52,934 bases of DNA, from contig JAOAPR010000100.1 of assembly GCA_025463005.1 (NCBI GenBank), positions 1 to 52,934 of the forward strand, written 5' to 3'. Numbering within the stretch: the stretch's first letter is position 1; the number at the start of each line of letters is the position of its first letter. The DNA is from Bryobacterales bacterium. Its GTDB lineage: Bacteria > Acidobacteriota > Terriglobia > Bryobacterales > Bryobacteraceae. This document shows positions 6,347-31,591 of this stretch, one piece after another. The notes beneath the pieces were generated by a model, which worked only from the letters and a program-made list of their open reading frames with translations, ran no database searches and was not told the origin of the DNA. Both the position numbers and the translations under genes were made by a program.

Positions 6347-6360
6347 TACTAAAATATCAA
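6333..6360 (-). promoter_or_regulatory. Sigma-70-like promoter of the HxlR operon
   Basis: On the minus strand TTGATA (6355-6360) and CATAAT (6333-6338) each match the sigma-70 consensus at five of six positions and are 16 nt apart. The -35 box lies inside the last codons of the upstream TonB-dependent receptor gene. Transcription would begin near 6325-6332, leaving a leader of about 20-25 nt before the GTG of the regulator. Confidence 0.55.
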
Positions 6361-9300
6361 TCTCATCACGCCGACGATGACCCGAGTCTCGTTGCCGATA
6401 TCGGCTCTCAAGTGACCAAAGAGCGGGCTGGTGACGTTGTTGCCGCTGCTGTCGAGAACTCCGAACCACGGAAAGTTTGCAGCATTATGCGCGTCTACAC
6501 GAATCTGCCACTTCACCCTTTCAGCCAGGTGAAATTCTTTATAGAGCGACAGGTCTGTGATGTTCAGAGGCTTGCTCCGCACATCCGGGAAGCGTGTCGG
6601 GAACGTCCGGAGGGTGAAAGGAGACTGCGCAGTTCGGGGAAAGAGAGACGTATCGAACCACACATCGTAGGAAGGATCGTACTGCGCACGTCCCGCGGCT
6701 TGCGCCAGCGCATCACGCTGCGCGTCACTGAGCTTGGCGCTTTTGGCTTCCAGCGGCCCGGCGTTCGGGAACGCCAGCGGAAATCCGGAATGCGACATCC
6801 ACACACCGCTCAACGTCCAGCCAGCGGCGATGCCATTCATCCATCGATAGGAGTAATTGCCGGGAAGACTGTAAGTCCCGATGACCGAGAACTGCTGCGG
6901 CACATCGAACTGCGTCAGGCGTTTCTCGAGCCTGGTATTCAGCGGATTCTGCAGATCGGCGTCCTGCGAATTGAGCGTCGATACTTGTTCCAACGCCTTG
7001 CTGATGGTGTAAGCCAGCGTGACGCTGAATCCACGCGAGAATCGCCGCGACAGCTTCATCTGCGCCGAATCGTAGCGTTGTTGGCCGATCGGCACGTCCG
7101 TCATTTGCGATCCGCTTCCGTACTGAGGAAAAGCGTACAGCAGTTGTTGACGCGGGACCGTGGAACCGTTGAAGGCCGAGTTGGGAAGCAATCCCGCCAT
7201 CGGATTCGCGACCTGCTGATTGAAGTATGCCTGGCGCTGGTCGAGCGGAATGCTGTTGAGCACGTCCGACGGAATGAAATTGAGCTGCAACGTGACAGGC
7301 AAGCGTTTGGTGAGATTCCCGGCATACGAAACATCCGCGAGCCAGCCCGCGGGCAGCTCATATTGGAATCCGGCGGAGTACTGCTGCGAGTAGGGCAGAG
7401 GCCGATCCAGGTATTGGAATGCAATGTTCTGTCCAAGATTGGTCGCCAACCCCTGGCTGTTGCCGATCGGCTGCAGAAGACCGTTCGGAAAGATGCTTAC
7501 CGGAAATGGATCGCTGAGGGAAACCGCCGGCGTGAGTCCGTTGTCTTGCGACGCCGTCAACTGTGTCTGCCGGCTGAAGCCGGTGGGCGGGCCGTTCGCG
7601 CTCTGGCCAAGATAGCCCAGACTGTAGCCGCCCCGAAATATGAGCTTCGGGGCGATCCGATACGCGACACCGATTCTCGGCTGAAAGTTCGCTCGGTGCG
7701 GCTCGAACGCATACCTGTTGTCGGAATCGGCGTACAGAAGACCGCCCTTCAAACCGGCGGCGCAAGCCGGGCAGTTTGCAGACGCCGCCGATGCCTGCAC
7801 TACGCCCGCAATCGGACTTGATTGACCGAAGGCGAACCCTCGCACCATTCGGTCGTAGCGCTCATCCCGTGGAGTTTCATAATCCCAACGCAAACCCAGA
7901 TTGAGCGACAGCCGCGGATGAATTTTGAAGTCGTCCTGCACGTAAGCGGCATAGTAGTGTGAGCGATATGCCGGATCAATGTTGCGATCAACAAATCCGC
8001 TGGAAGGGCGACCGAGCAGGAAAGATGCGAAGGCGTTGCCCGAAAGGCTGTCGGCGCGTTGTGGATTCGCTTGGGTCCAACCAGGGTCGAACGTGTACGA
8101 TCCGCTCGCGAGTCCCGGATTCAGGTTGTTGTCGTTATACCGCCGAAGCTCGGATCCGAGCCGCACATTGTGTTTGCCGCGAATCCAACTAACGTTCGGC
8201 TGCAGACTCCATACATCCTGAGCGGTGTAACTGAGTACGCCCGATGAGCCGATCTCGGAATACCCGGCGATATTGAACCGTGGAAACTCCAGGGTGGCGA
8301 ACTGTGCGGCGAGAGAATTCGGGAAGCCGAGTTGCCGCGGATCGTAATTCACTCCGAAGGAATTTCCGTTTGAGGTTTCAAAGCGCGACACGCCTGCTCT
8401 CAAATTAAACAGCAATGTTGGCGTGAACTGATAGGCCCAGTCCGCACCCCAGGCGCGGAACACGCGCGTGGATGGATACTGGTTGCTCGGCTCAGCCGGG
8501 TTGTCGCCCCACACCAGCTTGGCGTAGTTCAACCACGGCGTCTGCCCATAGTGGAAGGAGACGCGGCTCTTCGCGTTGAGCATGTGGTCGAGCTTTCCCA
8601 GCCACGCATCGTACGTGTTGGTCTCGGGAAGAATCTTCAGGTAGTTATTCAGATGCGCCGGTCCGTCGCCAGGCAAATTCGCCGCAGGATAAAAGGACGC
8701 GACCTTCGCCGCCACGTTATTGATCTGAGCGAGGGGAATCGCGTTCCCAACGAATGGCGTTCGCACGAAAGTTTTCCCGTCGGGGCCCAGTGAGGTCGAA
8801 AGCGGGTCGTAGATCGTGATCAGGTTGCCGTTGGCATCAAAGAGATGCGAAAAATCGCCGCGCAACTGTTCGGGGAGAGGCAACGTCCGGCTTTGGCCGC
8901 CCTGATTATGTTGCCGCAATCCCTCCAGCGAGATCGTGAAGAAGGTGCGATTCCGGCGCACAGGGCCTTCTGCCCCAAATCCGAAAGTATTGTTCTTGAA
9001 GGCTGTCGTGGGCACGCCGTTCTTATTTGCGATCCAGTCGTTCGCACGGATTTTATCGTTCTTGAAGTATTCGAAAAGCTGACCGTGGAAAGCGTTGGTG
9101 CCGCTCTTGAGGTTGATCATCGTGACGCCGCCGCCGGTTCGCCCAAACTGCGCGTCGTAGGAATTTATCTGGACGGTGAACTCCTCCGTCGCCGCGATCG
9201 GCGGAACCCAGGCGACGCCGCGGTCACTCTTGGTGTCGGTAACGCCGTCGACGACGATCTCGTTTTCCCCGCTCCGGCCGCCTGCGATCGAAACGGCATT

Positions 9301-9822
9301 GACGTTGCCGAAGGCGTACAGCTCCATGGCGCCCCAGTAGGTGCTGGTTTTCACGACACCCGGCTGGTCGTACTGTAAGGCGAACAGATTCCGCCCTCCT
9401 GAAGGCACATTTTCCAGAACGGGATTCTCAAAAGTCGATTCGCGCGTGGCGGTTTCGGTTTGAAGCACGGGCGTGCCGAAGACGGTTATCGTATCGACTC
9501 CAGCCAGGGACAGACTGACGTCTATGGAGAGCCGGTCGGACGCTAAGAGCGCCACCTCATGCTCGTACTTCTTGAAGCCTTGCAGCTCGACTGTCAGGGT
9601 GTATGTGCCCGGAAGCAACGTCGCGAGGGAATACCGGCCGATAGAATTCGTTGCGACTTCGTAAGCCAGATGCCTCTCCAGGTCGGAGGCTACAACCTTT
9701 GCTCCAGCCACCAGCGCTCCGGACGGATCCGTCACCTGGCCGCTGATCCTGGCACGGAACTCCTGCGCCAGGCCGGACGCGGCGACCGCCAGTAAACAGA
9801 CGCTAGCTTCTACTAACCTCAT
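6349..9822 (-). CDS. Oar-type TonB-dependent receptor with carboxypeptidase-regulatory-like N-terminal domain
   Basis: From ATG 9822 the protein has 1157 residues. MRLVEASVCLLAVAASGLAQ is a signal peptide; an upstream in-frame extension to 9981 is rejected because this ATG has a Shine-Dalgarno AAAGGGG and the signal peptide begins here. Residues about 22-105 form a CarboxypepD_reg-like beta-sandwich (ISGQVTDPSGALVAGAKV ... LPGTYTLTVELQGFKKY). A plug follows (GRSGENEIVVDGV near 195, AQFGRTGGGVTMINLKSGTN near 235), then a long beta-barrel ending in VIVGVMRLIF, a typical terminal strand with C-terminal Phe. The protein sits in the outer membrane and imports large or scarce ligands; the ligand is unknown. 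The HxlR operon follows on the same strand. Confidence 0.9.
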   Translation of the reverse strand: MRLVEASVCLLAVAASGLAQEFRARISGQVTDPSGALVAGAKVVASDLERHLAYEVATNSIGRYSLATLLPGTYTLTVELQGFKKYEHEVALLASDRLSIDVSLSLAGVDTITVFGTPVLQTETATRESTFENPVLENVPSGGRNLFALQYDQPGVVKTSTYWGAMELYAFGNVNAVSIAGGRSGENEIVVDGVTDTKSDRGVAWVPPIAATEEFTVQINSYDAQFGRTGGGVTMINLKSGTNAFHGQLFEYFKNDKIRANDWIANKNGVPTTAFKNNTFGFGAEGPVRRNRTFFTISLEGLRQHNQGGQSRTLPLPEQLRGDFSHLFDANGNLITIYDPLSTSLGPDGKTFVRTPFVGNAIPLAQINNVAAKVASFYPAANLPGDGPAHLNNYLKILPETNTYDAWLGKLDHMLNAKSRVSFHYGQTPWLNYAKLVWGDNPAEPSNQYPSTRVFRAWGADWAYQFTPTLLFNLRAGVSRFETSNGNSFGVNYDPRQLGFPNSLAAQFATLEFPRFNIAGYSEIGSSGVLSYTAQDVWSLQPNVSWIRGKHNVRLGSELRRYNDNNLNPGLASGSYTFDPGWTQANPQRADSLSGNAFASFLLGRPSSGFVDRNIDPAYRSHYYAAYVQDDFKIHPRLSLNLGLRWDYETPRDERYDRMVRGFAFGQSSPIAGVVQASAASANCPACAAGLKGGLLYADSDNRYAFEPHRANFQPRIGVAYRIAPKLIFRGGYSLGYLGQSANGPPTGFSRQTQLTASQDNGLTPAVSLSDPFPVSIFPNGLLQPIGNSQGLATNLGQNIAFQYLDRPLPYSQQYSAGFQYELPAGWLADVSYAGNLTKRLPVTLQLNFIPSDVLNSIPLDQRQAYFNQQVANPMAGLLPNSAFNGSTVPRQQLLYAFPQYGSGSQMTDVPIGQQRYDSAQMKLSRRFSRGFSVTLAYTISKALEQVSTLNSQDADLQNPLNTRLEKRLTQFDVPQQFSVIGTYSLPGNYSYRWMNGIAAGWTLSGVWMSHSGFPLAFPNAGPLEAKSAKLSDAQRDALAQAAGRAQYDPSYDVWFDTSLFPRTAQSPFTLRTFPTRFPDVRSKPLNITDLSLYKEFHLAERVKWQIRVDAHNAANFPWFGVLDSSGNNVTSPLFGHLRADIGNETRVIVGVMRLIF

Positions 9823-10005
9823 GCCCCTTTGCGTTGAAAGGGCATTGTAGACGGGATCCGGCGCGGGATCAATAATTTTCGCAGATCCGGCCGATTTTTT
9901 CGCATTTCCTAACAGGATTGTCACCCATCCTGTCTCCGGAATCCGGGATTCAGCTCGCAAGTGCCTGAGTTTGCTGGCCATTTACGCGTTGCCGCGGGAG
10001 GTTTT

Positions 10006-10790: not shown

Positions 10791-12437
10791 ATGAAAATTT
10801 GTATCGTGGCATCCATCGCCTGGTTCGCACCGATGATCTGGGCGCAGCCGGTCATCACTCCTGGCGGCATCTTGAACGTTAGCGGAGCACAGCCCCGGCT
10901 GGCGCCTAATGCCGTCTTCGTCGTTTACGGCCAGAATCTGGGTCCGGCGACCGAGGTGGATGCCACCGCACCGAACTATCCCATTTCGCTGGGTGGCTCA
11001 TCGGTGAGTTTCACGCCGACGGCCGGGGGCAGTGCGGTCTCCGCTTATATGGTGTTCACCCTGGCTGCTGCCGTGGGAGGTGTGATCCCCTCGTCGCTCG
11101 TGCCCGGCACCTACGCCGTGCGTGTTACCTACAACGGTCAAACCAGCACTCCTCAAACCGTGACCGTCGTCTCTCGGCTATTTAACATTGCGACTGCCAA
11201 CGGCATCGGCAGCGGAACCGCCCAGGCGACGATCGTGGAGGTAAACGAGGGTTTCAGCCTTACTCGCTTCACGACTGCGCCCGCGCCTGCCGGCCCCCGG
11301 CAATTTGCGAAAGCGCCCGCGCATGGCACGAATACCATCTCGCTGTGGGGTACCGGAGGCGGAGCCGACGCGGCCAATGATACCGGCGGCTCGTCCGGCG
11401 ACCAGACGGCGGCGGGGAGTTTCAAAGTGATGGTCGGCAGCCGTGTGATCACGCCGACCTATACGGGTGCCGTGGCAGGGTACCCCGGGCTATGGGTGCT
11501 CATTTTCACTTTGCCCGCTGATATCGAACCGGATTGTTACGCGTCGCTTCAAGTCAGCTCCAATGGTGAACTCAGCAATACACCCATTCTTCCTATTGCG
11601 GCTGCGGGGGAGAGTGCCTGCGCGGATCCGAATCTGACTCCGGCCGTGCTTACCAAGTTGGATGGGGGCGGTACTATCGTCGGCGGTGCGTTGGCCGTTG
11701 TCAGATCCGTCAGCACTAACCCGGCGGTCACGCAGGAATTCGGCAGCGGATCCTTCGCGCGCTGGACAGCAGCCAAATGGGCCGCGAGCGCTCCGAGCCG
11801 GCCGAATCTCGGCCACTGCAGCGTTTTCGAGCGCACCTACCCTGTAGGTGGAACAGATCCCGCCGGCCCCGAGGCACTTCTGGATGCCGGCGCAAGTCTC
11901 CCTTTAAGCGGCCCTGGGTTGCCGCAAGGAGCCAGTCTGGCAAGAATCGTAGTGCCGACGTTTGGTTTCAGCTACCTCTTCTCACCGGCGCTCGGGACAT
12001 TTAGAACCGGGAGATACACCTTGACCGGAAACGGTGGCGCCGACGTCGGCCCATTCAACGCAGGAGCGAACTTCCCAGCCAGCTTCGCCGTGACAAATTG
12101 GGATTCCATCACCGTCATCGATCGCTCCCGGCCAGTCAACCTCACCTGGACTGGAAGCGGAGCGGACTATGTGACGGTCGTGATCACGAACTCGAGACGA
12201 GAAAGCTCTATCATTCACATCGTTACGATCTCCTGCTATGTTCGCGGCAGCGATGGGGCACTTTCGGTTCCTCTGAGCGCGGTCTCCCGATTGTTGCCGC
12301 CACCTGCCGATGCCACGATGTCGGTGCAAGGATATAGCTTTGAGATTTTCAACGCGAACCTGGTGGCAGGCGGTCAGATCGACTTTGGCTCTTTCGGGGC
12401 CGCGCTCAGCGTCTCGAAGACTCTTAGCGTCCAATGA
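10791..12437 (+). CDS. Secreted protein with Solibacter-type TIGR03437 domain
   Basis: The 548-residue protein starts with a short signal peptide (KICIVASIAWFAPMIWAQ) followed by PNAVFVVYGQNLGP and ISLGGSSVSFTPTAGG. This resembles the uncharacterised domain described as TIGR03437, abundant in Solibacter, which looks like a TIG/IPT Ig-like fold. Further on, ISLWGTGGGADAANDTGG and YTGAVAGYPGLWVLIFTLPADI match the second half of such domains. The C-terminal half (about 290-548) is beta-rich, with several Cys pairs and no enzyme motif. The protein is inferred to be extracellular or surface-attached. It lies 8 nt after the Agenet-like gene. Confidence 0.75.
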   Translation: MKICIVASIAWFAPMIWAQPVITPGGILNVSGAQPRLAPNAVFVVYGQNLGPATEVDATAPNYPISLGGSSVSFTPTAGGSAVSAYMVFTLAAAVGGVIPSSLVPGTYAVRVTYNGQTSTPQTVTVVSRLFNIATANGIGSGTAQATIVEVNEGFSLTRFTTAPAPAGPRQFAKAPAHGTNTISLWGTGGGADAANDTGGSSGDQTAAGSFKVMVGSRVITPTYTGAVAGYPGLWVLIFTLPADIEPDCYASLQVSSNGELSNTPILPIAAAGESACADPNLTPAVLTKLDGGGTIVGGALAVVRSVSTNPAVTQEFGSGSFARWTAAKWAASAPSRPNLGHCSVFERTYPVGGTDPAGPEALLDAGASLPLSGPGLPQGASLARIVVPTFGFSYLFSPALGTFRTGRYTLTGNGGADVGPFNAGANFPASFAVTNWDSITVIDRSRPVNLTWTGSGADYVTVVITNSRRESSIIHIVTISCYVRGSDGALSVPLSAVSRLLPPPADATMSVQGYSFEIFNANLVAGGQIDFGSFGAALSVSKTLSVQ

Positions 12438-12518: not shown

Positions 12519-15500
12519 ATGCGCAGGTTCCTAGTCAGCGCGGTATTGGCCGTCTGCCTGGCAGCGGGCGCTGAAGCCGCGTCGCATCGTCTGAATCTCT
12601 ATCCCAACTCCTTCACGATCTTCTCGATGGCGGAAGGCCCCGACCACCTGCTGTGGCTGGCGACTTCCGACGGCTTGTACCGTTTTGACGGATTTCACTA
12701 CCACAAGATCACGGATTATCCGTTCAGCTTTGCCAGGTTCGTCGCGTTCACCGGCGATGGATCTTTATGGGTCGGCAGCTATGAAGGTCTGGCGCGCGCC
12801 CGCCCCGGTAAGAGCTTCGAAGTCATCCTGACGGAAGAAGTTATTAGTTTGGCGGCTTATCCCGATCAGGTGTTCGTTCGTTTGACGGACCTGGTTCAAA
12901 TTCGGCTGGACGGCTCCGTGCGTCACCTCGGCCACCATACACGGCGGGATTTGTTGATCGATTCTTCCGGAATGCTGTGGTCCACCTGCATAAGCCCCAA
13001 CGCTGCGTGCTGGATCGATCCCACCCGGCCGGAACAACTCCAGCAGGTGCAAGGTCTGGAGGTCTCACAGGCAGCGGTTCGCGATTCCCAAGGCCGGCTA
13101 TGGGTCTCCAACGATGAACACGCCATGATTTTCCAGGATGGGCGCGCCCTGTTGACCCTGCAACGTAAGCCGACTGTCGAAACCCGGCGTACCAATCCTC
13201 TGCTTCCGGGCGGTGGTGGCCAACTCTGGTTCCTCGGGGAGGCGGTGCGCGGCCTGGTGCAGGAAGTAGAATTTCGCGACCGCGCCGATCACGATCGTTA
13301 TCCTCCCATTTCGGGCCTTGAGGACAGCCGAGGTCATGTATGGGTGGCTTCGTTAGGGCAAGGATTGGTCGAATGGGTTCCCGACCAGCAATGGCAGCGG
13401 TGGTTTCCCGAGGATTTCGACAATGAACCGGTCGTGCTGCTGGTGCGGGATCATCAGGGATCGCTGGTGCTCGCCACGCACAAACATCTATATCGCTGGA
13501 ATCAGCAGACGGGTAAGTGGAGGCGCTTCGCTGAGGGGGACCATCGCTATGAAGGGCTGCTGCCGCTCGATGACGGCGGATTCCTGGCTACGATGCGCGA
13601 TCTGGGTGTGGTCCGGCTCTCCAGCGACGGAAGGATTGTGGAGCGCATCAAAGATCTTTTGCCGGAGGGGGACAAATACCGTAAAATCATCCGCGATGGA
13701 AAAGGGCGAATCTGGATCGGCGCGAAACGCATTCTCCTGCGTATAGAAGGCAAGCCCGGCTCGCTGCGGCTGCGCGAGGAGCATCTGCCTGGAGATCCCT
13801 TTAACGGCTACGAAAACAGTGTCGATTTAGAAGTGGATCGCTCCGGTCGTTTATGGGCTGGATATCAGAACGGAATTGCGTGGCTGGATGACGAGGATCA
13901 TTGGCATCAGGTTCCAACCAACCAGCCCATCACCGAAGTCCGTTCGTTTACGCTTGCGGGAGACGATTTCTGGATAGCGCATCGGCAATCGGGCGCATTC
14001 ACCCGGCTTAGTAAGGATCGCGATCGCTGGAATGTGTCGACATTGGCGGCAAATGCCGGATATGGCCCCACCGATTCGCTATTCATTAAACGCGATTCGC
14101 GCGGATGGATCTGGCGCGGCGCCACGGACGGCGTCCACATTTCAGATGGGCACAACTTCGGTCCCAATGACTGGCTTCACATTCATCTGGGAAACGGTCT
14201 GGCCGCGAATGAAATGGATATTTATGGGTTCTTCGAAGACGCGGACGGTACAGTCTGGATCGCCGGCGCAGAAGGCCTGACTCATTTTCGTCCGGACCCG
14301 TCGTGGTTCCAGGCGCCCCGCGAAGCTCCCGTCCCTCAAGTGACCCGGTTGATAACAAATGGCCACCCGTTCCTTTATCCGGCGGCGATTCCGCACCAAC
14401 TTCCGGCGAGCACTACTGCCATGGAAATTGACGTGGGATCGCTGGGGACGCCTCCGTTCCGCGACGTTCCTTTCCGCTATCGCTTGCTGCCGCTCTCCAA
14501 GGAGTGGCGCGTCTCGACGAATGGCACGCTGCAATTTGCGAATCTGTCCCCGCTGGCATACACGCTCGAAATTGGTTATGCAGGCGACGGTCCGCCCAAG
14601 GTATCCACATTTTCGTTGCGGATCGGAGCGCCGAGCCGGGAGGTGTCGTGGTTGTGGACGCTTTTGTTTCTGACTGGCACGGGCGCAGTGATCGCAATCA
14701 TCCGTTACGCGCCGGGGTTGGACGGATTCAGGTTCCGCATGGGAAAAGCGATCTTCGTGTTACGCCGTCGTTACAGCGACCGGACTGCCGTCAGATCGAC
14801 AGACGCTCTACGCGCATCCGGGAACTATTCGGGCCGAACTTTGTCCGGGCGATATCTTCTGAGCCGGATCGTATCTCGCGGGGGATTCTCGGTGGTGTAT
14901 GAAGGCTCTGATCTCAGCAACGGAAATGCTCGAATTGCCGTGAAGGTCCTCAACCGAGGCTCTGGCTCAAGTTCTTATCAAGACGGCTGGCTGCGCGACC
15001 GGTTCGCACACGAAGTAGCTTCATTGCGATCCGTGGATCATCCCGGAGTGGTCCGGATTCTGGATTCGTGGGTCAGTTCCTCCGGCGAGCCGTGCCTGGC
15101 GATGCCATTCCTGGAGGGACAAACGCTGCGTACAGCTCTATCGGAAAAACCGTTCACGCTCGAGCGAGTGGCGCGCATCGTTAATCAACTCGGAGCGGCC
15201 TTAGCCGAGGTGCATGACCGCGGGATCGTTCATCGCGATCTCAAACCCGAGAATCTGATCCTTCTCCGGCCGGCGACAGATCTCGAGCAGGTGGTCATTA
15301 TCGACTTCGGAACCGCCGGATTGCGCACCGGCGACGACGAACTGGCCGCCACCACACTCCTGGCAGGATCGTTTCACTACATGGCGCCGGAGCGGCTGAC
15401 GGGGCACTACTCAGCAGCGAGCGATCGATTTTCTTTCGCCGTAATTGTCTTGGAGATGCTGACCGGCAAGCGGCTGCCCGATCTCCGCGTCATGTTTTCA

Positions 15501-15677
15501 GACGCGTCGTTTTTGGGTGAGTTACAGAAGGCCCTGGGCGTCACCCTCAGCCAGGATGCGGCGCAGCGCGTCGCGAATCTACTGGGCCCGGCGTTTGACC
15601 CGGAGCCTCGCCGCAGGCCTGCGAACACCCGAGCATGGGCTGAAGAGTTAGCTGCTGCGATCTATCAGAAAATCTAG
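12519..15677 (+). CDS. Beta-propeller (Reg_prop/Y_Y_Y) sensor with C-terminal Ser/Thr protein kinase
   Basis: From ATG 12519 there are 1052 residues. The signal peptide (MRRFLVSAVLAVCLAAGAEAA) leads to about ten Reg_prop-type repeats of the form D-x-x-G-x-h-W-h (GDGSLWVGS, DSQGRLWVSN, EDSRGHVWVAS, DGKGRIWIGA, VDRSGRLWAGY, DADGTVWIAG). A Y_Y_Y-like domain lies at about 630-705 (DVPFRYRLLPLSKEWR), one membrane span at about 709-731 and a protein kinase at about 777-1052. Kinase motifs are complete: IAVKVL (Lys809), HRDLKPEN (His905), DFGTAG (Asp929) and YMAPERL. The glycine loop is altered (VSRGGFSVVY). The propeller should face the periplasm and the kinase the cytoplasm. In the usual form of this sensor the output is a histidine kinase. 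Its stop overlaps that of the convergent ECF sigma factor. Confidence 0.92.
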   Translation: MRRFLVSAVLAVCLAAGAEAASHRLNLYPNSFTIFSMAEGPDHLLWLATSDGLYRFDGFHYHKITDYPFSFARFVAFTGDGSLWVGSYEGLARARPGKSFEVILTEEVISLAAYPDQVFVRLTDLVQIRLDGSVRHLGHHTRRDLLIDSSGMLWSTCISPNAACWIDPTRPEQLQQVQGLEVSQAAVRDSQGRLWVSNDEHAMIFQDGRALLTLQRKPTVETRRTNPLLPGGGGQLWFLGEAVRGLVQEVEFRDRADHDRYPPISGLEDSRGHVWVASLGQGLVEWVPDQQWQRWFPEDFDNEPVVLLVRDHQGSLVLATHKHLYRWNQQTGKWRRFAEGDHRYEGLLPLDDGGFLATMRDLGVVRLSSDGRIVERIKDLLPEGDKYRKIIRDGKGRIWIGAKRILLRIEGKPGSLRLREEHLPGDPFNGYENSVDLEVDRSGRLWAGYQNGIAWLDDEDHWHQVPTNQPITEVRSFTLAGDDFWIAHRQSGAFTRLSKDRDRWNVSTLAANAGYGPTDSLFIKRDSRGWIWRGATDGVHISDGHNFGPNDWLHIHLGNGLAANEMDIYGFFEDADGTVWIAGAEGLTHFRPDPSWFQAPREAPVPQVTRLITNGHPFLYPAAIPHQLPASTTAMEIDVGSLGTPPFRDVPFRYRLLPLSKEWRVSTNGTLQFANLSPLAYTLEIGYAGDGPPKVSTFSLRIGAPSREVSWLWTLLFLTGTGAVIAIIRYAPGLDGFRFRMGKAIFVLRRRYSDRTAVRSTDALRASGNYSGRTLSGRYLLSRIVSRGGFSVVYEGSDLSNGNARIAVKVLNRGSGSSSYQDGWLRDRFAHEVASLRSVDHPGVVRILDSWVSSSGEPCLAMPFLEGQTLRTALSEKPFTLERVARIVNQLGAALAEVHDRGIVHRDLKPENLILLRPATDLEQVVIIDFGTAGLRTGDDELAATTLLAGSFHYMAPERLTGHYSAASDRFSFAVIVLEMLTGKRLPDLRVMFSDASFLGELQKALGVTLSQDAAQRVANLLGPAFDPEPRRRPANTRAWAEELAAAIYQKI

Positions 15678-16225
15678 ACGCAGCGTTTCAAGCGATTCGC
15701 CATCCACTGCAGACCGAAATCGTAATCGGCGCGCACCCGCCAGGCTTCGCGACCCTGGGATAGCGTCATCTCATGAATCGTCTGGCCTTCCACGCAACGC
15801 GCCCAAACCGTCTCGGCCACTTCTCGATCCATGGCGCGAAGTTTTTCAAACATCATCTTCACGGCCAAAGCGGATTCGCGGTCGGCATGACGGGCGGTCA
15901 GTAACAGTTCCGGAATCAACTCCGGCTGGATTTTTCTGGCTGCGTTTTTTGAGCGCGAATGATCGATCAAAACCTGCCGCATGGCGCGAGCCGAGATGCG
16001 GAAGAAATGATCCTCGTTGAGAATGCGAGCTTCCAAGCGGTGCAGCTTCAAAAACAGCTCGCTCACCAGAGCTGTGGGCTGTAGCGTGTGTCCGGGACGT
16101 TCCCTTTTGAGCAGCGCCGAGGCGATGACCCGAAGCCGGTAGAATGCCAGCTTGTAGACGGCATCCTGAGCAATGCTGTCGCCGAGTTGGGCTTTCTCGA
16201 ATAATGACGCGAATGCTTCCGCCAT
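15674..16225 (-). CDS. ECF sigma factor of the Ser/Thr-kinase-associated (ECF43/TIGR02999-like) type
   Basis: The 183-residue reading from ATG 16225 has a Shine-Dalgarno (GGTGGAG); a TTG at 16267 would add 14 residues and is less likely. Region 2 reads PTALVSELFLKLHRL, then NEDHFFRISARAMRQVLIDHSRSKNAARK, the hallmark of the Sigma70_ECF family. Region 4 is MDREVAETVWARCVEGQTIHEM. The acidic region-2.2 residues of ordinary ECF factors, which bind RNA polymerase, are replaced: PTALVSE has Thr51 near that site. In the ECF43 group a Thr at this place is known to be phosphorylated by a partner Ser/Thr kinase. The gene converges on the propeller kinase gene, overlapping by the 4 bases CTAG. The helix-turn-helix of region 4 is divergent, so promoter choice cannot be guessed. 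Confidence 0.85.
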   Translation of the reverse strand: MAEAFASLFEKAQLGDSIAQDAVYKLAFYRLRVIASALLKRERPGHTLQPTALVSELFLKLHRLEARILNEDHFFRISARAMRQVLIDHSRSKNAARKIQPELIPELLLTARHADRESALAVKMMFEKLRAMDREVAETVWARCVEGQTIHEMTLSQGREAWRVRADYDFGLQWMANRLKRCV

Positions 16226-16287
16226 CGATTGCTCCACCCCTGCTTGGTTAAAGGCAGAGTATAGCAAAAGAACGGTAAACTTTCTTC

Positions 16288-20106: not shown

Positions 20107-22644
20107 ATGTCTGTGCAATCCCGCGATCCTGCCGTTTCCGAGGACTCCGCCGGTACCGTGGATGTCGTCACCGAGGTCCGGCGCGAAGCGGCCCTGCTCA
20201 AGACCGGGGCGCTGCAGAACGCGATTTTTAACAGCGCCAATTTCTCGAGCATCGCCACCGACGAGAAAGGCGTCATTCAACTATTCAATGTCGGCGCGGA
20301 GCGCATGCTCGGCTACACCGCCATGGAGGTGGTCGATAAGATCACGCCCGCCGACATTTCCGATCCGCAGGAAGTGATCGCACGCGCCAAAGCGTTGAGC
20401 CTCGAGCTCGCAACTCCGATTACACCAGGTTTCGAGGCGCTGGTCTTCAAGGCCTCGCGCGGCATCGAAGACATTTATGAGCTGACGTATATCCGTAAAG
20501 ATGGCAGCCGCTTTCCCGCTGTCGTGTCGGTTACGGCGCTGCGCGACGATCTGGGCGGAATCATCGGGTATCTGTTGATCGGCACCGACAATACCGCGCG
20601 CAAGCAGGCAGAAGAGGCGCTGCTTAAAGCGGGCGCCTTGCAAAGCGCGATTTTTAACAGCGAAAACTTCTCGAGTATCGCCACCGACGCGAAAGGCGTC
20701 ATCCAGATCTTCAACGTCGGCGCTGAGCGCATGCTGGGCTACACTGCCGCCGAAGTGATGAACAAGATCACCCCCGCCGACATTTCCGATCCGCAGGAGG
20801 TGATCGTACGTGCCAACGCGTTGAGCCACGAGCTCGCAACCACGATCACGCCGGGTTTCGACGCATTGGCGTTCAAAGCCTCGCGCGGCATCGAAGACAT
20901 CTATGAGCTGACATACATCCGTAAAGATGGCAGCCGCTTTCCCGCTGTCGTATCGGTTACGGCGCTGCGCGACGATCTTGGCGGAATCATCGGCTATCTG
21001 TTGATCGGCACCGATAACACGGCCCGCAAACAGGTGGAAGCGGAGCAAAAGCTGCTCGATCAGCGCCTGCGAGATCAGCAGTTCTATACCCGCTCTCTGA
21101 TCGAATCTAATATCGACGCGCTGATGACCACCGATCCGGCCGGAATCATCACCGACGTCAACAAGCAAATGGAGGCGCTGACCGGTTGCACGCGTGATGA
21201 GCTGATCGGCGCGCCGTTCAAGAACTACTTCACGGATCCGGAGCGGGCCGAGGCGGGCATCAAGCGGGTGCTGAGCGGCAGCAAAGTCACCGATTACGAA
21301 CTGACGGCCCGGGCCCGTGATGGCAAGGAAACAGTCGTGTCCTACAACGCGACCACGTTCCACGATCGCGACCGGAAGCTTCAGGGAGTATTCGCCGCGG
21401 CGCGCGACGTCACCGAACGCAAACGCTTTGAGCGCACGCTGCAGGAAAACAACCTCGAATTGGAGAGAGCCAGAGCCGCGGCGGAAAAGGCCAACCTCGC
21501 GAAATCGGATTTCCTGTCCAGCATGAGCCATGAGCTTCGCTCGCCGCTCAATGCGATCCTTGGTTTCGCCCAGCTCATTAATTCCGAATCTCCGCCGCCC
21601 ACGCCCTCCCAGACTGCCAGCATCGACCAGATTCTCCACGCCGGATGGTATCTGTTGCAGCTTATCAATGAAATTCTGGATCTCGCGCAGATCGAGTCCG
21701 GCAAGCTGGCGCTATCCAGGGAACCGACTTCCTTGGCCGAAGTCATGCTCGAATGCCAGGCTATGATCGAGCCGCAGGGGCAAAAACGCGGCATCAGAAT
21801 GACTTTTCCGCAGTCCGGCTGCTCTTACTTCGTGGATGCCGATCGGACCCGGTTGAAGCAGGTTCTCATCAATCTTCTCTCTAACGCAATCAAATACAAC
21901 CAGTCGAATGGAACGGTAGTTGTGGACTGCGCCATGACCAGTCCCCAGCGCATTCGCGTTAGCGTTAGGGACACTGGTGCCGGATTGCCTCCGGATATGC
22001 TGCTGCAGCTATTCCAGCCGTTCAACCGTCTGGGCCAAGAGCGTAGCACGGAGGAAGGCACAGGCATCGGCCTGGTGATGAGCAAGCGCCTGGTTGAGCT
22101 GATGGGCGGTGTAATCGGCGTGGAAAGCACGGTCGGTTTGGGGAGCGTGTTCTGGTTCGAGCTGAACTCGACTGATGAGCCACACCTTGGAGCAGATACG
22201 GCTAAACCCGCGGCGATTACACTGGCACAGGTTCAGCACGGCGCGCCGCTGCGCACACTGCTCTATGTAGAGGACAACCCGGCGAATCTGAAGCTAATCG
22301 AACAGCTGATCGCGCGCCGTCCGGATATGCGCCTGCTGAGTGCGAGAGAGGGAAATCTGGGCATCCAGCTGGCGCGCGCCAACCAGCCGGAGGTGATCCT
22401 CATGGATATCAATCTTCCCGGCATCAGCGGCATTGAAGCCCTGAAAATCCTTCGCGAAGACCCGGCAACCGCGCACATCCCGGTGGTTGCCCTCAGCGCA
22501 AACGCGATGCCTCGCGACATCGAGAAGGGCCTGCAAGCTGGATTCTTCCGGTATCTGACCAAACCGATCAAGGTCAGCGAGTTCATGGAGACTCTGGAGG
22601 TGGCACTGGAATTCGCGGCGCAAGAGGTCGTTCAGAGCAAATAA
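20107..22644 (+). CDS. Soluble hybrid sensor histidine kinase with three PAS domains and a receiver
   Basis: The 845-residue protein has no membrane span. PAS 1 (about 35-165) and PAS 2 (about 177-307) are near-identical copies; PAS 3 is at about 328-438 (ESNIDALMTTDPAGIITDVN). A coiled stretch leads to HisKA with SSMSHELRSPLNAILGF (phospho-acceptor His475). The HATPase has INLLSNAIKYN, VRDTGAGL and GTGIGLVMSKRLVELMGG. The receiver (about 730-845) has LLYVEDNPANL, Asp767 in LMDINLPGI, and YLTKPI. GGAGGT lies 6 nt before ATG 20107. It senses a cytoplasmic signal, perhaps via haem or flavin in PAS, and passes phosphate to its own receiver. The receiver-PP2C gene begins 12 nt downstream, so the two very likely act together. 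Confidence 0.93.
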   Translation: MSVQSRDPAVSEDSAGTVDVVTEVRREAALLKTGALQNAIFNSANFSSIATDEKGVIQLFNVGAERMLGYTAMEVVDKITPADISDPQEVIARAKALSLELATPITPGFEALVFKASRGIEDIYELTYIRKDGSRFPAVVSVTALRDDLGGIIGYLLIGTDNTARKQAEEALLKAGALQSAIFNSENFSSIATDAKGVIQIFNVGAERMLGYTAAEVMNKITPADISDPQEVIVRANALSHELATTITPGFDALAFKASRGIEDIYELTYIRKDGSRFPAVVSVTALRDDLGGIIGYLLIGTDNTARKQVEAEQKLLDQRLRDQQFYTRSLIESNIDALMTTDPAGIITDVNKQMEALTGCTRDELIGAPFKNYFTDPERAEAGIKRVLSGSKVTDYELTARARDGKETVVSYNATTFHDRDRKLQGVFAAARDVTERKRFERTLQENNLELERARAAAEKANLAKSDFLSSMSHELRSPLNAILGFAQLINSESPPPTPSQTASIDQILHAGWYLLQLINEILDLAQIESGKLALSREPTSLAEVMLECQAMIEPQGQKRGIRMTFPQSGCSYFVDADRTRLKQVLINLLSNAIKYNQSNGTVVVDCAMTSPQRIRVSVRDTGAGLPPDMLLQLFQPFNRLGQERSTEEGTGIGLVMSKRLVELMGGVIGVESTVGLGSVFWFELNSTDEPHLGADTAKPAAITLAQVQHGAPLRTLLYVEDNPANLKLIEQLIARRPDMRLLSAREGNLGIQLARANQPEVILMDINLPGISGIEALKILREDPATAHIPVVALSANAMPRDIEKGLQAGFFRYLTKPIKVSEFMETLEVALEFAAQEVVQSK
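20185..21036 (+). repeat. In-gene tandem duplication encoding two PAS domains, period 426 nt
   Basis: Two consecutive copies of 426 nt (142 codons) encode PAS 1 and PAS 2, for example GGG at 20206 aligns with GGC at 20632. The last part of each copy, from ASRGIEDIYEL through GTDNTARKQ, is identical in protein, while several third codon positions differ. The first part has diverged a little more. Confidence 0.9.
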
Positions 22645-22656
22645 ATCTGGACGAGC

Positions 22657-23880
22657 ATGGTCACCTCAGACGATATTCTGAACGCCAGAATCCTGGTCGT
22701 TGACGACAAGGAAGCCAATGTCCGGCTGATCGAGGGCATGCTGCGCGTCGCCGGCTATACGGCCGTCGAATCTACCACCGATCCGAACGAGGTCTGCGAA
22801 CTCTACCGCCAAAACCGCTACGGCCTGATCCTGCTCGATCTCCAGATGCCCGGAATGGACGGCTTCCAGGTAATGGAAGGCCTGAAAGAAATCGAAGGGG
22901 AGGGCTATCTTCCGGTCCTCGTGATCACCGCGCAACCCAGTCACAAGCTGCGTGCGCTTGAGGCCGGCGCTAAGGATTTCGTCAGCAAACCGTTTGATCT
23001 GGCCGAGCTCCGGGCGCGCGTCCATAACATTCTGGAAGTGCGCCTGTTACACCTCGAAACGAAGAACTACAGCAAGGCGCTGGAGCAGACGGTGCGGGAA
23101 CTGGAAGCAAGCCGCGAGGTCATTCGCCTAAAAACCCTGGAGGAGCGAAAGAAGAGCGAGCAGGAATTAGCCTTGGCGCAGCAAACGCAGGAAAGCCTGC
23201 TTCCCCGCTGTCTGCCCCAGTTTGAGAAGTTTCGGATCCACGCTTTCAACAATCCTACTCGTTACGTGGGAGGCGATTTCTACGATTTCCTGCAACTGAG
23301 CTCCGGGGAATGGGTAGGCGTTCTGGCAGATGTCTCCGGCAAGGGGATGCCGGCAGCCCTGTTAAGTTCCATGGTCCTGGGTGCTCTCAGCATGGAATTT
23401 CACTCAGGAACACAGCCGCAGGAGATCTTGAACCGCGTCAACCGGCTCCTTTGCGAGAAATCTCTTCCCTGCCAGTTCGTTACGTTATTCCTCTTCCTCC
23501 TGAGCCCGAATGGCAGTGGACAATTCATAAGTGCGGGACATAATCCGGCGTATTTGTTCCGATCCGCTACGGGGAAAATCGAACATCTGGTCTCTGATGC
23601 TTACGTCCTGGGGATGTTCGACTTCGCCTCTTATGAATCTCTCACGCTCCATCTCTGCAAGGGCGACATTCTGGTGGTGTATTCCGACGGCCTTACGGAT
23701 GCGCAGAACCTGCAGGAAGAAATGTTCGGAGAGGAAAGACTGCTAAACCTCATTCGGCAAGAGGCCCCTTCGGGAAGTCACGCGCTTGAGCAGAGGCTCT
23801 TGAAAGCCATTGAGGAATTCACTCAGGGCACGCCGCAGACTGACGATATCACCTTCGTTGTCGTCGAAAAATGTCAGTAA
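22657..23880 (+). CDS. Response regulator with PP2C-type (SpoIIE/RsbU-like) phosphatase output
   Basis: The 407 residues begin with a receiver domain (RILVVDDKEANVRLIEGML; phospho-acceptor Asp61 in LLDLQMPGMDGF; Lys in FVSKPFD near 112). A coiled linker at about 130-180 (LEQTVRELEASREVIRLKTLEERKKSEQE) is followed by the PP2C-like phosphatase. Its metal-binding motifs are present in order: YVGGDFYDF, LADVSGKGMPAALL, YSDGLTDAQN and TDDITFVVVE. Such proteins dephosphorylate STAS anti-anti-sigma proteins in partner switching, when their receiver is phosphorylated. No STAS or anti-sigma kinase is in the window. The start is 12 nt after the hybrid kinase stop, giving a cognate pair. Confidence 0.92.
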   Translation: MVTSDDILNARILVVDDKEANVRLIEGMLRVAGYTAVESTTDPNEVCELYRQNRYGLILLDLQMPGMDGFQVMEGLKEIEGEGYLPVLVITAQPSHKLRALEAGAKDFVSKPFDLAELRARVHNILEVRLLHLETKNYSKALEQTVRELEASREVIRLKTLEERKKSEQELALAQQTQESLLPRCLPQFEKFRIHAFNNPTRYVGGDFYDFLQLSSGEWVGVLADVSGKGMPAALLSSMVLGALSMEFHSGTQPQEILNRVNRLLCEKSLPCQFVTLFLFLLSPNGSGQFISAGHNPAYLFRSATGKIEHLVSDAYVLGMFDFASYESLTLHLCKGDILVVYSDGLTDAQNLQEEMFGEERLLNLIRQEAPSGSHALEQRLLKAIEEFTQGTPQTDDITFVVVEKCQ

Positions 23881-31034: not shown

Positions 31035-31591
31035 GAAACTTTTTCCCTCTCCAGCGCGAAATAGATCTGCTCTAGCGCGCGGATCGCCCGATACACGCGC
31101 ACCTTCACGGTCGCCACTTCGCAGCCCAGCACGGCCGCGATGTCGTCATACTTCATTCCCTGGAACCGGCTCAGCACCAGGATTTCGCGCTTGTCCTCGG
31201 GAAGCCGATCGAGCGCCCGGCGCAACAACGCCAGATCCTGGCCGCGCGATGCGCTTTCTTCCGGCCCGGGCGAGGCCGAAACCAGCTCAGCGCGTCGATC
31301 TGCGAACGTCTCGATATCCACTACTTCCGTCCTCCGCTTGCGCAGCCGATCTACGCCGGCATTCCTGGCGATCTGGTACATCCACGACGTGAACGATTGC
31401 GCCGGGTTGTAGCTGGTCCGATACCGCAACATCCGAAAGAACACGTCCTGCACCAGGTCCTCCGCCGTTTCCCGATCACGGTTCATCGATACGAAGTAAC
31501 GGAACAAGGGGCGGTGGTAGCGTTCGAATAGCACGGCAAGCTGAGCCACCTGGCCAGCGCTCACCTGCTCCATCACCGCGTTATCTGTCAT
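31031..31591 (-). CDS. ECF sigma factor (RpoE-like)
   Basis: From ATG 31591 there are 186 residues; a TTG at 31612 would add 7. Region 2 has LFERYHRPLFRYF and DRETAEDLVQDVFFRMLRYRTSYNP, with the acidic residues that bind RNA polymerase, and SFTSWMYQIARNAGVDRLRKR. Region 4 has LDRLPEDKREILVLSRFQGMKYDDIAAVLG and VATVKVRVYRAIRAL, the DNA-reading helix. It is released when the downstream anti-sigma factor loses its grip. Operons of this kind usually control their own expression, so a promoter of its own type should lie in the 96 nt before the gene. Confidence 0.92.
   Translation of the reverse strand: MTDNAVMEQVSAGQVAQLAVLFERYHRPLFRYFVSMNRDRETAEDLVQDVFFRMLRYRTSYNPAQSFTSWMYQIARNAGVDRLRKRRTEVVDIETFADRRAELVSASPGPEESASRGQDLALLRRALDRLPEDKREILVLSRFQGMKYDDIAAVLGCEVATVKVRVYRAIRALEQIYFALEREKVS

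Follow-up and report, generated by a model that had tools for sequence, protein, structure and literature searches.

A propeller-sensor Ser/Thr kinase and its neighboring ECF-type sigma factor as a probable one-step signaling pair in Bryobacterales

Can a signal from outside the cell reach a sigma factor through a single kinase? This question is raised by a locus within a 52,934-nucleotide stretch of Bryobacterales DNA, here called the window, for which an earlier note had suggested such a route. We found both open reading frames where the note had placed them: a gene for a Reg_prop/Y_Y_Y-transmembrane-Ser/Thr receptor kinase at 12519-15677 on the plus strand (1,052 residues; ATG start, with a TTG two codons upstream of the ATG) and a gene for an ECF-type sigma factor at 15674-16225 on the minus strand (183 residues). 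The genes overlap tail to tail by 4 nt, as had also been described, and the CTAG at 15674-15677 is common to both stop codons. The same spacing is found in two relatives, L052 and L061.

We asked whether the unusual architecture claimed for the kinase was real. Its plus-strand coding sequence begins with a signal-peptide-like N terminus (residues 1 to 20; 12519-12578) recognized by hydropathy, with the cleavage site placed by eye. About 14 blade motifs follow (approximately residues 25 to 605; 12591-14333), 13 of them in regular register in a motif search that also gave off-register matches and one read by eye; presumably they form two 7-bladed propellers. In a Pfam scan, Reg_prop scored 62.8 bits against a cut-off of 20.4, while Y_Y_Y scored 13 bits, below its cut-off of 26.6, at approximately residues 606 to 707 (14334-14639). 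At the same place a relative (L062) has Y_Y_Y at 40.9 bits. A sensor profile built from 10 relatives matched the solved sensor chains 4a2l, 3v9f, 3va6, and 3ott, and its best stretch on 4a2l (E = 1.2e-39) reached residue 764 of the 795 in that chain. We take 4a2l to be BT4663 of Bacteroides and the C-terminal end of its chain to be the Y_Y_Y domain. The domain in the window protein is thus a putative Y_Y_Y, assigned purely by homology to L062 and 4a2l. Hydropathy places a single transmembrane span at approximately residues 710 to 730 (14646-14708).

The protein ends in a Hanks-type kinase domain (14832-15662, plus strand), with Pkinase at 120.5 bits against a cut-off of 31.7 and the motifs VAIK-K, alpha-C E, HRDxKxxN, DFG, and APE all present. 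All 16 rows of our kinase alignment (A2), the window included, share K809, E832, D907, N912, D929, and the P-E of APE. The first P-loop Gly is Ser in the window kinase, and in one relative (L055) the Gly-loop is degraded and DFG reads DLG. Sensor, membrane span, and Ser/Thr kinase therefore do lie in one protein. The Pfam scan found no HisKA/HATPase output in the window kinase protein; such an output is present in the Reg_prop proteins L227 to L229 and L281 to L283. That the usual form of this sensor ends in a histidine kinase was borne out by all three other proteins of the same genome with Reg_prop and Y_Y_Y both above cut-off.

The sigma factor matched PF07638 (Sigma70_ECF) at 73.1 bits, against a gathering score of 21.1. 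The nearest curated model, TIGR02999 (Sig-70_X6), gave 95.3 bits, below its cut-off of 126.15. When region 2.2 was aligned with E. coli sigma-E by eye on the shared V-x-E, a place where HMMER put a two-residue gap, the window sigma had Q49-P50-T51-A52, lacking the DxxD acids and with Thr at the third place, as the earlier note had read it. The assignment to the ECF43 type held in part: the Thr without acids and the Hanks-type kinase next door agree with it, but membership in ECF43 was not established, because TIGR02999 fell below cut-off and the propeller-linked sigmas group apart. The sigma-4 region (15686-15853, minus strand) carries the helix motif WRVR, which is found in 11 of 33 relatives; the controls mostly have xTVx. 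A suspicion that sigma-4 is degenerate in the window sigma was dropped, as its relatives have the same pattern.

In nearly all relatives, the two genes were found together. In 34 kinase genes a single frame covers both propeller and kinase; read in the window's order, 33 of them adjoin a sigma gene (32 of 33 when limited to those listed by the kinase search); the one kinase of the lineage without a sigma beside it is L097. The neighborhood on which the proposed route depends is thus confirmed elsewhere. The 33 pairs comprise 26 convergent, 4 sigma-first, 1 kinase-first, and 2 divergent arrangements, and adjacency kept while orientation varies speaks for a partnership between the proteins, not for shared transcription. 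Distances among the kinases correlated with those among their sigma partners (r = 0.87, n = 33, a value that includes a share from genome descent), and the highest of 5,000 shuffles was 0.23. The same subgroups also reappear in the kinase and sigma trees. These comparisons support co-evolution of kinase and sigma, and direct kinase-to-sigma signaling is, at the level of sequence, a well-supported prediction.

The architecture, the catalytic residues, the missing acids, and the conserved partnership are established from sequence; beyond them we infer a ligand, phosphorylation, its site, polymerase binding, and a regulon. In the best explanation, which we hold to be fairly probable, the HTCS-type periplasmic double-propeller/Y_Y_Y sensor would detect an outside ligand, and the single membrane span would pass the signal to the cytoplasmic Ser/Thr kinase, activated probably by altered dimer geometry as in known receptor kinases. 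The kinase would then phosphorylate the product of the tail-to-tail sigma gene, in the window sigma most likely at Thr51 of region 2.2. The unphosphorylated sigma would be without the acids needed for docking on the beta' clamp of RNA polymerase; phospho-Thr51 would provide the charge, so that sigma binds polymerase and its regulon is transcribed.

Is Thr51 the site? Its codon, within QPTALVSE, lies at 16073-16075 on the minus strand, and we treat it as a candidate phospho-acceptor. Position 51 is Thr in 12 of the 15 sigmas of the closest clade and Ser or Thr in 27 of all 33. T51 is the only invariant Ser/Thr among 11 clade sigmas in an alignment (A1) that leaves out the genus with Lys51. That genus supplies the remaining 3 of the 15 (L053, L054, and L057), and 3 others of the 33 have Gln, Gly, or Ile. 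Every sigma has at least one Ser/Thr at positions 49 to 52 (33/33), compared with 35% on average over all four-column stretches. An acid lies within 49 to 52 in 18 of the 33, namely, in 6 of 6 sigmas without Ser/Thr51 versus 12 of 27 with it; these 12 may not be silent when unphosphorylated. The T51 frequency of 69 control loci was left unused, since one seed pattern contains the Thr, and that scan is biased against Lys51 forms. A T51 switch is therefore not universal across the lineage; in the window sigma, the sequences make it likely.

An unlikely reading keeps direct activation of the sigma by the kinase but places it mainly at another residue (in the linker, T47, T149, or a region 2.2 neighbor), with T51 accessory. 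The three clade members without T51 have kinases that keep their catalytic residues and sigmas that retain T50 and S52 (ETKS). T47 and T149 are likewise conserved: T47 is Ser/Thr in 93% of the 15 clade sigmas, and T149, in sigma-4, in 94% of the 33 and 87% of the 15, compared with 82% and 80% for T51. However, T149 stands at the usual start of a sigma-4 helix and may be structural. There is also a precedent in the linker, where T106 is a second, sufficient site in EcfK of Xanthomonas citri, according to passages of PMC13147305, and T110 and S118 of the window linker adjoin acids. Yet none of the 12 columns richest in Ser/Thr across the 33 sigmas falls in the linker, and 11 of 33 sigmas have an acid in the linker column at E106, which may therefore be constitutively charged.

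Could the kinase instead act in the manner of an anti-sigma factor, keeping the sigma at the membrane until ligand arrives, without phosphorylating it? The tight co-evolution fits a binding pair, and membrane anti-sigmas are the commonest control of ECF factors according to PMC8103513. Nevertheless, a kinase that only tethers the sigma could do without the key catalytic residues kept in every A2 row, and the window sigma is without acids for constitutive polymerase binding; we consider this very improbable. Equally small is the chance that the kinase acts on other proteins while the sigma merely drives or shares its expression. Ser/Thr kinases often have several substrates, and the convergent genes do not form one operon, but adjacency persisting across differing orientations argues for a protein partnership. 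Chance neighborhood, for which we found no point in favor, is practically negligible and is ruled out by the 33/34 synteny, in a genome of 6.36 Mb with 4 strong PF07638 matches and 16 above cut-off.

We compared the preferred reading, activation by phosphorylation most likely at Thr51, with known systems. In PknD the kinase precedes the membrane span, and PknD is not known to be paired with a sigma of this type. PknD-type receptor Ser/Thr kinases also join an extracytoplasmic propeller to a Hanks kinase, but PknD has a single 6-bladed propeller, according to PMC2877116, versus a propeller pair in the window kinase. Precedents for kinase-activated sigmas are EcfK/PknS of X. citri (in passages of PMC13147305) and EcfP/PknT of Vibrio parahaemolyticus (in passages of PMC8999054 and PMC8103513). 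As in these ECF43 pairs, the window sigma adjoins a transmembrane Ser/Thr kinase, and its region 2.2 acids are replaced. The Thr occupies the same motif place in QPTA of the window as in QATE of EcfK and STTA of EcfP, an equivalence drawn from motifs quoted in PMC13147305 and PMC8999054 rather than from an alignment of our own. The first of these papers also describes EcfK T51A as still functional because linker T106 can substitute, and PknS as having an N-terminal kinase with periplasmic TPRs at its C terminus. The window kinase, in contrast, has its propeller pair at the N terminus and the kinase at the C terminus. Window-type sigmas also differ from ECF43 in grouping apart, in their sigma-4 helix, and in gene order: they are mostly convergent (26/33), whereas sigma-first order prevails among the 73 control loci (46), the others being 7 kinase-first, 7 convergent, 2 divergent, and 11 without a kinase within 1,500 nt. 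With HTCS and Reg_prop/Y_Y_Y histidine kinases the window protein shares a homologous periplasmic sensor followed by one membrane span; a histidine kinase with a receiver, the HTCS output, is replaced in the window by a Ser/Thr kinase together with a separate sigma. Thus, the pair looks like a new version of the recently found ECF43 kind of pathway, new in its HTCS-type sensor and inverted receptor-kinase topology.

In trees with some weak supports, kinase and sigma alike stand apart from most ordinary pairs of the ECF43-like kind. When 30 further sigmas from sequence searches (15 + 15) were added, two label changes still sufficed for the propeller-linked sigma group; L142, with a kinase truncated at a contig end, accounts for one of them. 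Of the added sigmas, 24 of the 30 have a kinase within 1.5 kb and none has a propeller there. Several branches have weak support, and midpoint rooting divides the propeller-linked group, so its single origin is likely rather than shown. With 33 other kinases added, the propeller kinases came together in a single set (SH-aLRT 95), whose further members are L142 and one more row, suspected to be the contig-cut L094. Of the ECF43-type kinases, 53/62 lie on another branch (support 91) and 9/62 off that branch. We searched a phylum sample twice (396 genomes each time, the window's own included), scoring three and two candidates per genome, a depth that does not prove absence elsewhere. No second full-length architecture came up; all occurrences of the Reg_prop-kinase architecture seen in the genomes sampled belong to one family.

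A polymer or sugar signal, as the earlier note had proposed, was not supported; of the other 11 window proteins that were scanned, none was clearly devoted to glycan use. When genes near the pairs were clustered, two families recurred: one of secreted proteins, connected by NHL-type/TIGR03437 stretches, in the vicinity of 10 of 36 loci, and one of barrel proteins, represented in the window by CarboxypepD_reg/OMP_b-brl_4, close to 5 of 36. Because TIGR03437 has 43 matches in the window's own genome alone, we did not count these recurring families as evidence of a regulon. As a weak lead, a TATACT at 16258-16263 on the minus strand may serve the sigma gene as a housekeeping -10 box; similarly weak, boxes like TATAnT, TACACT, or TAnACT lie within 110 nt before the sigma domain at 8 of 33 loci.

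The one-step route from an outside signal to a sigma factor gains from the pairing, the co-evolution, and the Thr of region 2.2, but not from a universal T51. Taken as sequence evidence, these data suggest that an outside signal probably switches on transcription by one phosphorylation step. With somewhat less than even confidence, we further propose an ECF-type sigma lineage outside ECF43 proper, so far of one Bryobacterales family only, that would have arisen with a new receptor kinase, its HTCS double-propeller sensor placed before a Ser/Thr kinase not descended from the main ECF43 kinases. This lineage would connect an HTCS-type sensor to RNA polymerase with no response regulator between them, and its region 2.2 site, shifting between phosphorylatable Thr/Ser and fixed acids, would form a natural series of phospho-dependent and precharged sigmas. 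If the one-step route holds, these poorly understood soil bacteria would show how a common periplasmic sensor can leave a two-component phosphorelay for a one-step kinase-to-sigma switch, and more than 30 natural variants would be at hand for testing the charge rule of sigma activation, by phosphate or by a fixed acid in region 2.2.

The kinase ORF occupies 12519-15677 on the plus strand and the sigma ORF 15674-16225 on the minus strand. The two genes converge and overlap, as the earlier note had described, with CTAG common to both stop codons. In Pfam scans, the sigma matched PF07638 at 73.1 bits, and the kinase protein matched Reg_prop at 62.8 bits and Pkinase at 120.5 bits. Y_Y_Y reached 13 bits in the kinase protein, under the cut-off; in the relative at L062 it scored 40.9 bits and was placed between the propellers and the membrane span. 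We compared a sensor profile built from 10 relatives with chains of solved structures. It matched the sensor chain 4a2l (E = 1.2e-39), the best stretch reaching residue 764 of 795, and also 3v9f, 3va6, and 3ott, all titled as two-component sensor histidine kinases; three designed propellers were matched weakly. With L062 and 4a2l supplying Y_Y_Y, the proposed order of propeller/Y_Y_Y sensor, membrane span, and Ser/Thr kinase was borne out. The sensor has 13 blade-like motifs in register and 1 read by eye, a count that suggests two 7-bladed propellers. The single membrane span (residues about 710-730) and an N-terminus that looks like a signal peptide place the sensor N-terminally outside and the kinase C-terminally inside. 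This order is the reverse of that in PknS, the partner kinase of EcfK, which has an N-terminal kinase and a C-terminal TPR sensor (PMC13147305).

The known form of this sensor was said to end in a histidine kinase. All three other proteins of the same genome with Reg_prop and Y_Y_Y above the cut-off bear HisKA_3 and HATPase_c, and three propeller-only matches of our kinase search in other genomes (L281-L283) are likewise HisKA/HATPase/receiver proteins. As read from its sequence, the window kinase protein is a histidine-kinase-type sensor with a different output.

We searched 257 genomes of the order Bryobacterales for the sigma, and its orthologues stood out above background. Searching these genomes for the kinase yielded more propeller kinases; since three candidates were scored per genome and kinase-only matches were left out of the neighbour count, the genomes may hold further pairs or kinases that stand alone. 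Contexts were read at 36 loci (the window, L047-L062, and L097-L115). At 34 of these, propeller and kinase share a single reading frame; five (L054, L102, L107, L110, and L115) appear cut by a contig end, and L051, counted among the 34, has its first part in a second frame. The two genes are neighbours elsewhere too, a check that the earlier note had proposed: an ECF sigma gene adjoins 33 of the 34 propeller kinases (gap, -148 to +572 nt), with 17 of the 36 loci, the window included, having entered through the sigma search, a route favouring adjacency. Adjacency was 32 of 33 when only kinases listed by the kinase search were counted. The 33 pairs comprise 26 convergent, 4 sigma-first, 1 kinase-first, and 2 divergent arrangements. 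L280, where a contig end leaves just the tail of the kinase and the visible flank shows no sigma, did not enter the count.

The sole propeller kinase with no adjoining sigma, L097 (5442-8612), belongs to the same lineage; in its genome the lineage profile scores a single sigma at more than 200 bits, and that sigma adjoins the genome's second propeller kinase. An intact kinase is missing at two loci. L108 is spread over several frames. At L058 (4501-6351) both convergent genes of an orthologous pair lack their 3' ends, and the stumps flank a toxin-antitoxin-like pair, named by eye as a RelE/HigB-like ORF and a helix-turn-helix antitoxin-like ORF.

For controls, named genomes were scanned with 11 sigmas of the clade closest to the window's, and 80 of 288 relatives were kept. 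Nine were clade members (L117-L125; six titled Bryobacterales or Bryobacter, three with other Acidobacteria-group labels), mostly on contigs already read; two more (L146 and L173) had propeller kinases, and 69 were other ECF43-like sigmas from several phyla. The propeller profile found no match among the kinases of these 69 loci. Their kinase domain lies near the N-terminus in most and further in (residues 164-515) in 8 frames, which we take to be over-extended upstream. With L063-L065 (same genome as the window) and L066 (another genome), the 73 controls were 46 sigma-first, 7 kinase-first, 7 convergent, and 2 divergent, with 11 having no kinase within 1,500 nt. In one genome, G098, the ECF43-like sigma profile matched 25 times; the propeller-linked one set aside, a kinase-domain ORF lay within 1.5 kb of 15 of the 15 sigmas looked at.

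Pairwise distances of the 33 sigma/kinase pairs correlated at 0.87, against at most 0.23 in 5,000 shuffles; shared ancestry of the genomes contributes to the value of 0.87. Five genomes (G058, G101, G129, G138, and G139) carry two pairs each, and every kinase adjoins its own sigma. Propeller kinases group in the kinase tree (SH-aLRT 96; 95 with 33 other kinases added). In the sigma tree, propeller-linked rows require two label changes (group support 90), one being control L142; adding 30 sequence-search sigmas left two changes, with some supports weak. The kinase at L142 is cut by a contig end, and because the locus falls among propeller-linked rows in both trees, it is probably a propeller-type pair.

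Thr51 was the candidate phospho-site. Position 51 is S/T in 27 of 33 sigmas, and in the clade of 15 it is Thr in 12 and Lys in 3, the Lys sigmas coming from one genus and two of them being near-identical. In these three (L053, L054, and L057), region 2.2 reads ETKS rather than QPTA, yet the catalytic residues of the adjacent kinase are retained. Positions 49-52 are QPTA in 9 of 33; the other variants are QATA, PPTA, EATA, SxTE, TxTE, SPTV, SGTA, xxSD, ETKS, SAQD, YSGD, and GSID. Every one of the 33 sigmas carries S or T somewhere in this stretch, compared with a mean of 35% over all four-column stretches. D or E occurs within 49-52 in all six sigmas without S/T51, versus 12 of the 27 with it. 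This pattern fits a rule of charge by phosphate or fixed acid, the six representing few independent events. However, conservation at T149 and, within the clade, at T47 equals or exceeds that at T51, which counts against a special role for T51. Together with the weak tree supports, this slightly lowers the odds of our best explanation and of a separate lineage. In the linker, the position of E106 carries an acid in 11 of 33 sigmas; in EcfK, T106 is described as a second site (PMC13147305).

Upstream of the kinase lie a TIGR03437 secreted-type protein (10791-12437, plus strand) and a CarboxypepD_reg/OMP_b-brl_4 barrel protein (6352-9981, minus strand); proteins of similar kinds also turn up near other pairs, but they are common. 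Some 4 kb past the sigma gene, at 20107-23880, a hybrid histidine kinase is followed by a receiver-SpoIIE (PP2C-type) phosphatase; we found no evidence linking them to the pair. A second ECF-type sigma lies at 31076-31576 on the minus strand (PF07638, 22 bits). Scans covered 11 window proteins besides the pair, including the TIGR03437 protein, the barrel protein, the hybrid histidine kinase, and the phosphatase as well as an aminotransferase, an SDR, and a BNR/Sortilin-type protein, and gave no clear pointer to a glycan. Because HTCS sensors respond to complex oligosaccharides (PMC3243724), a glycan is a possible ligand by analogy.

Binding of an outside ligand would change the receptor, the kinase would phosphorylate the sigma at T51, and phospho-T51 would stand in for the missing acid so that the sigma docks on polymerase. 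The kinase-sigma partnership and the missing region 2.2 charge are read directly from the genes; ligand, phosphorylation, and docking would follow by analogy with EcfK and EcfP (PMC13147305, PMC8999054, PMC8103513). Literature searches found no paper that mentions both the two-component regulator propeller and a serine/threonine kinase, or Reg_prop, kinase, and Acidobacteria together; wider searches gave no title on this pairing among the matches listed, and the available part of a review on ECF43 and Acidobacteria has no such sensor. Thus, on the literature searched, the pairing of kinase and sigma is of a known kind, and this form of it is new.
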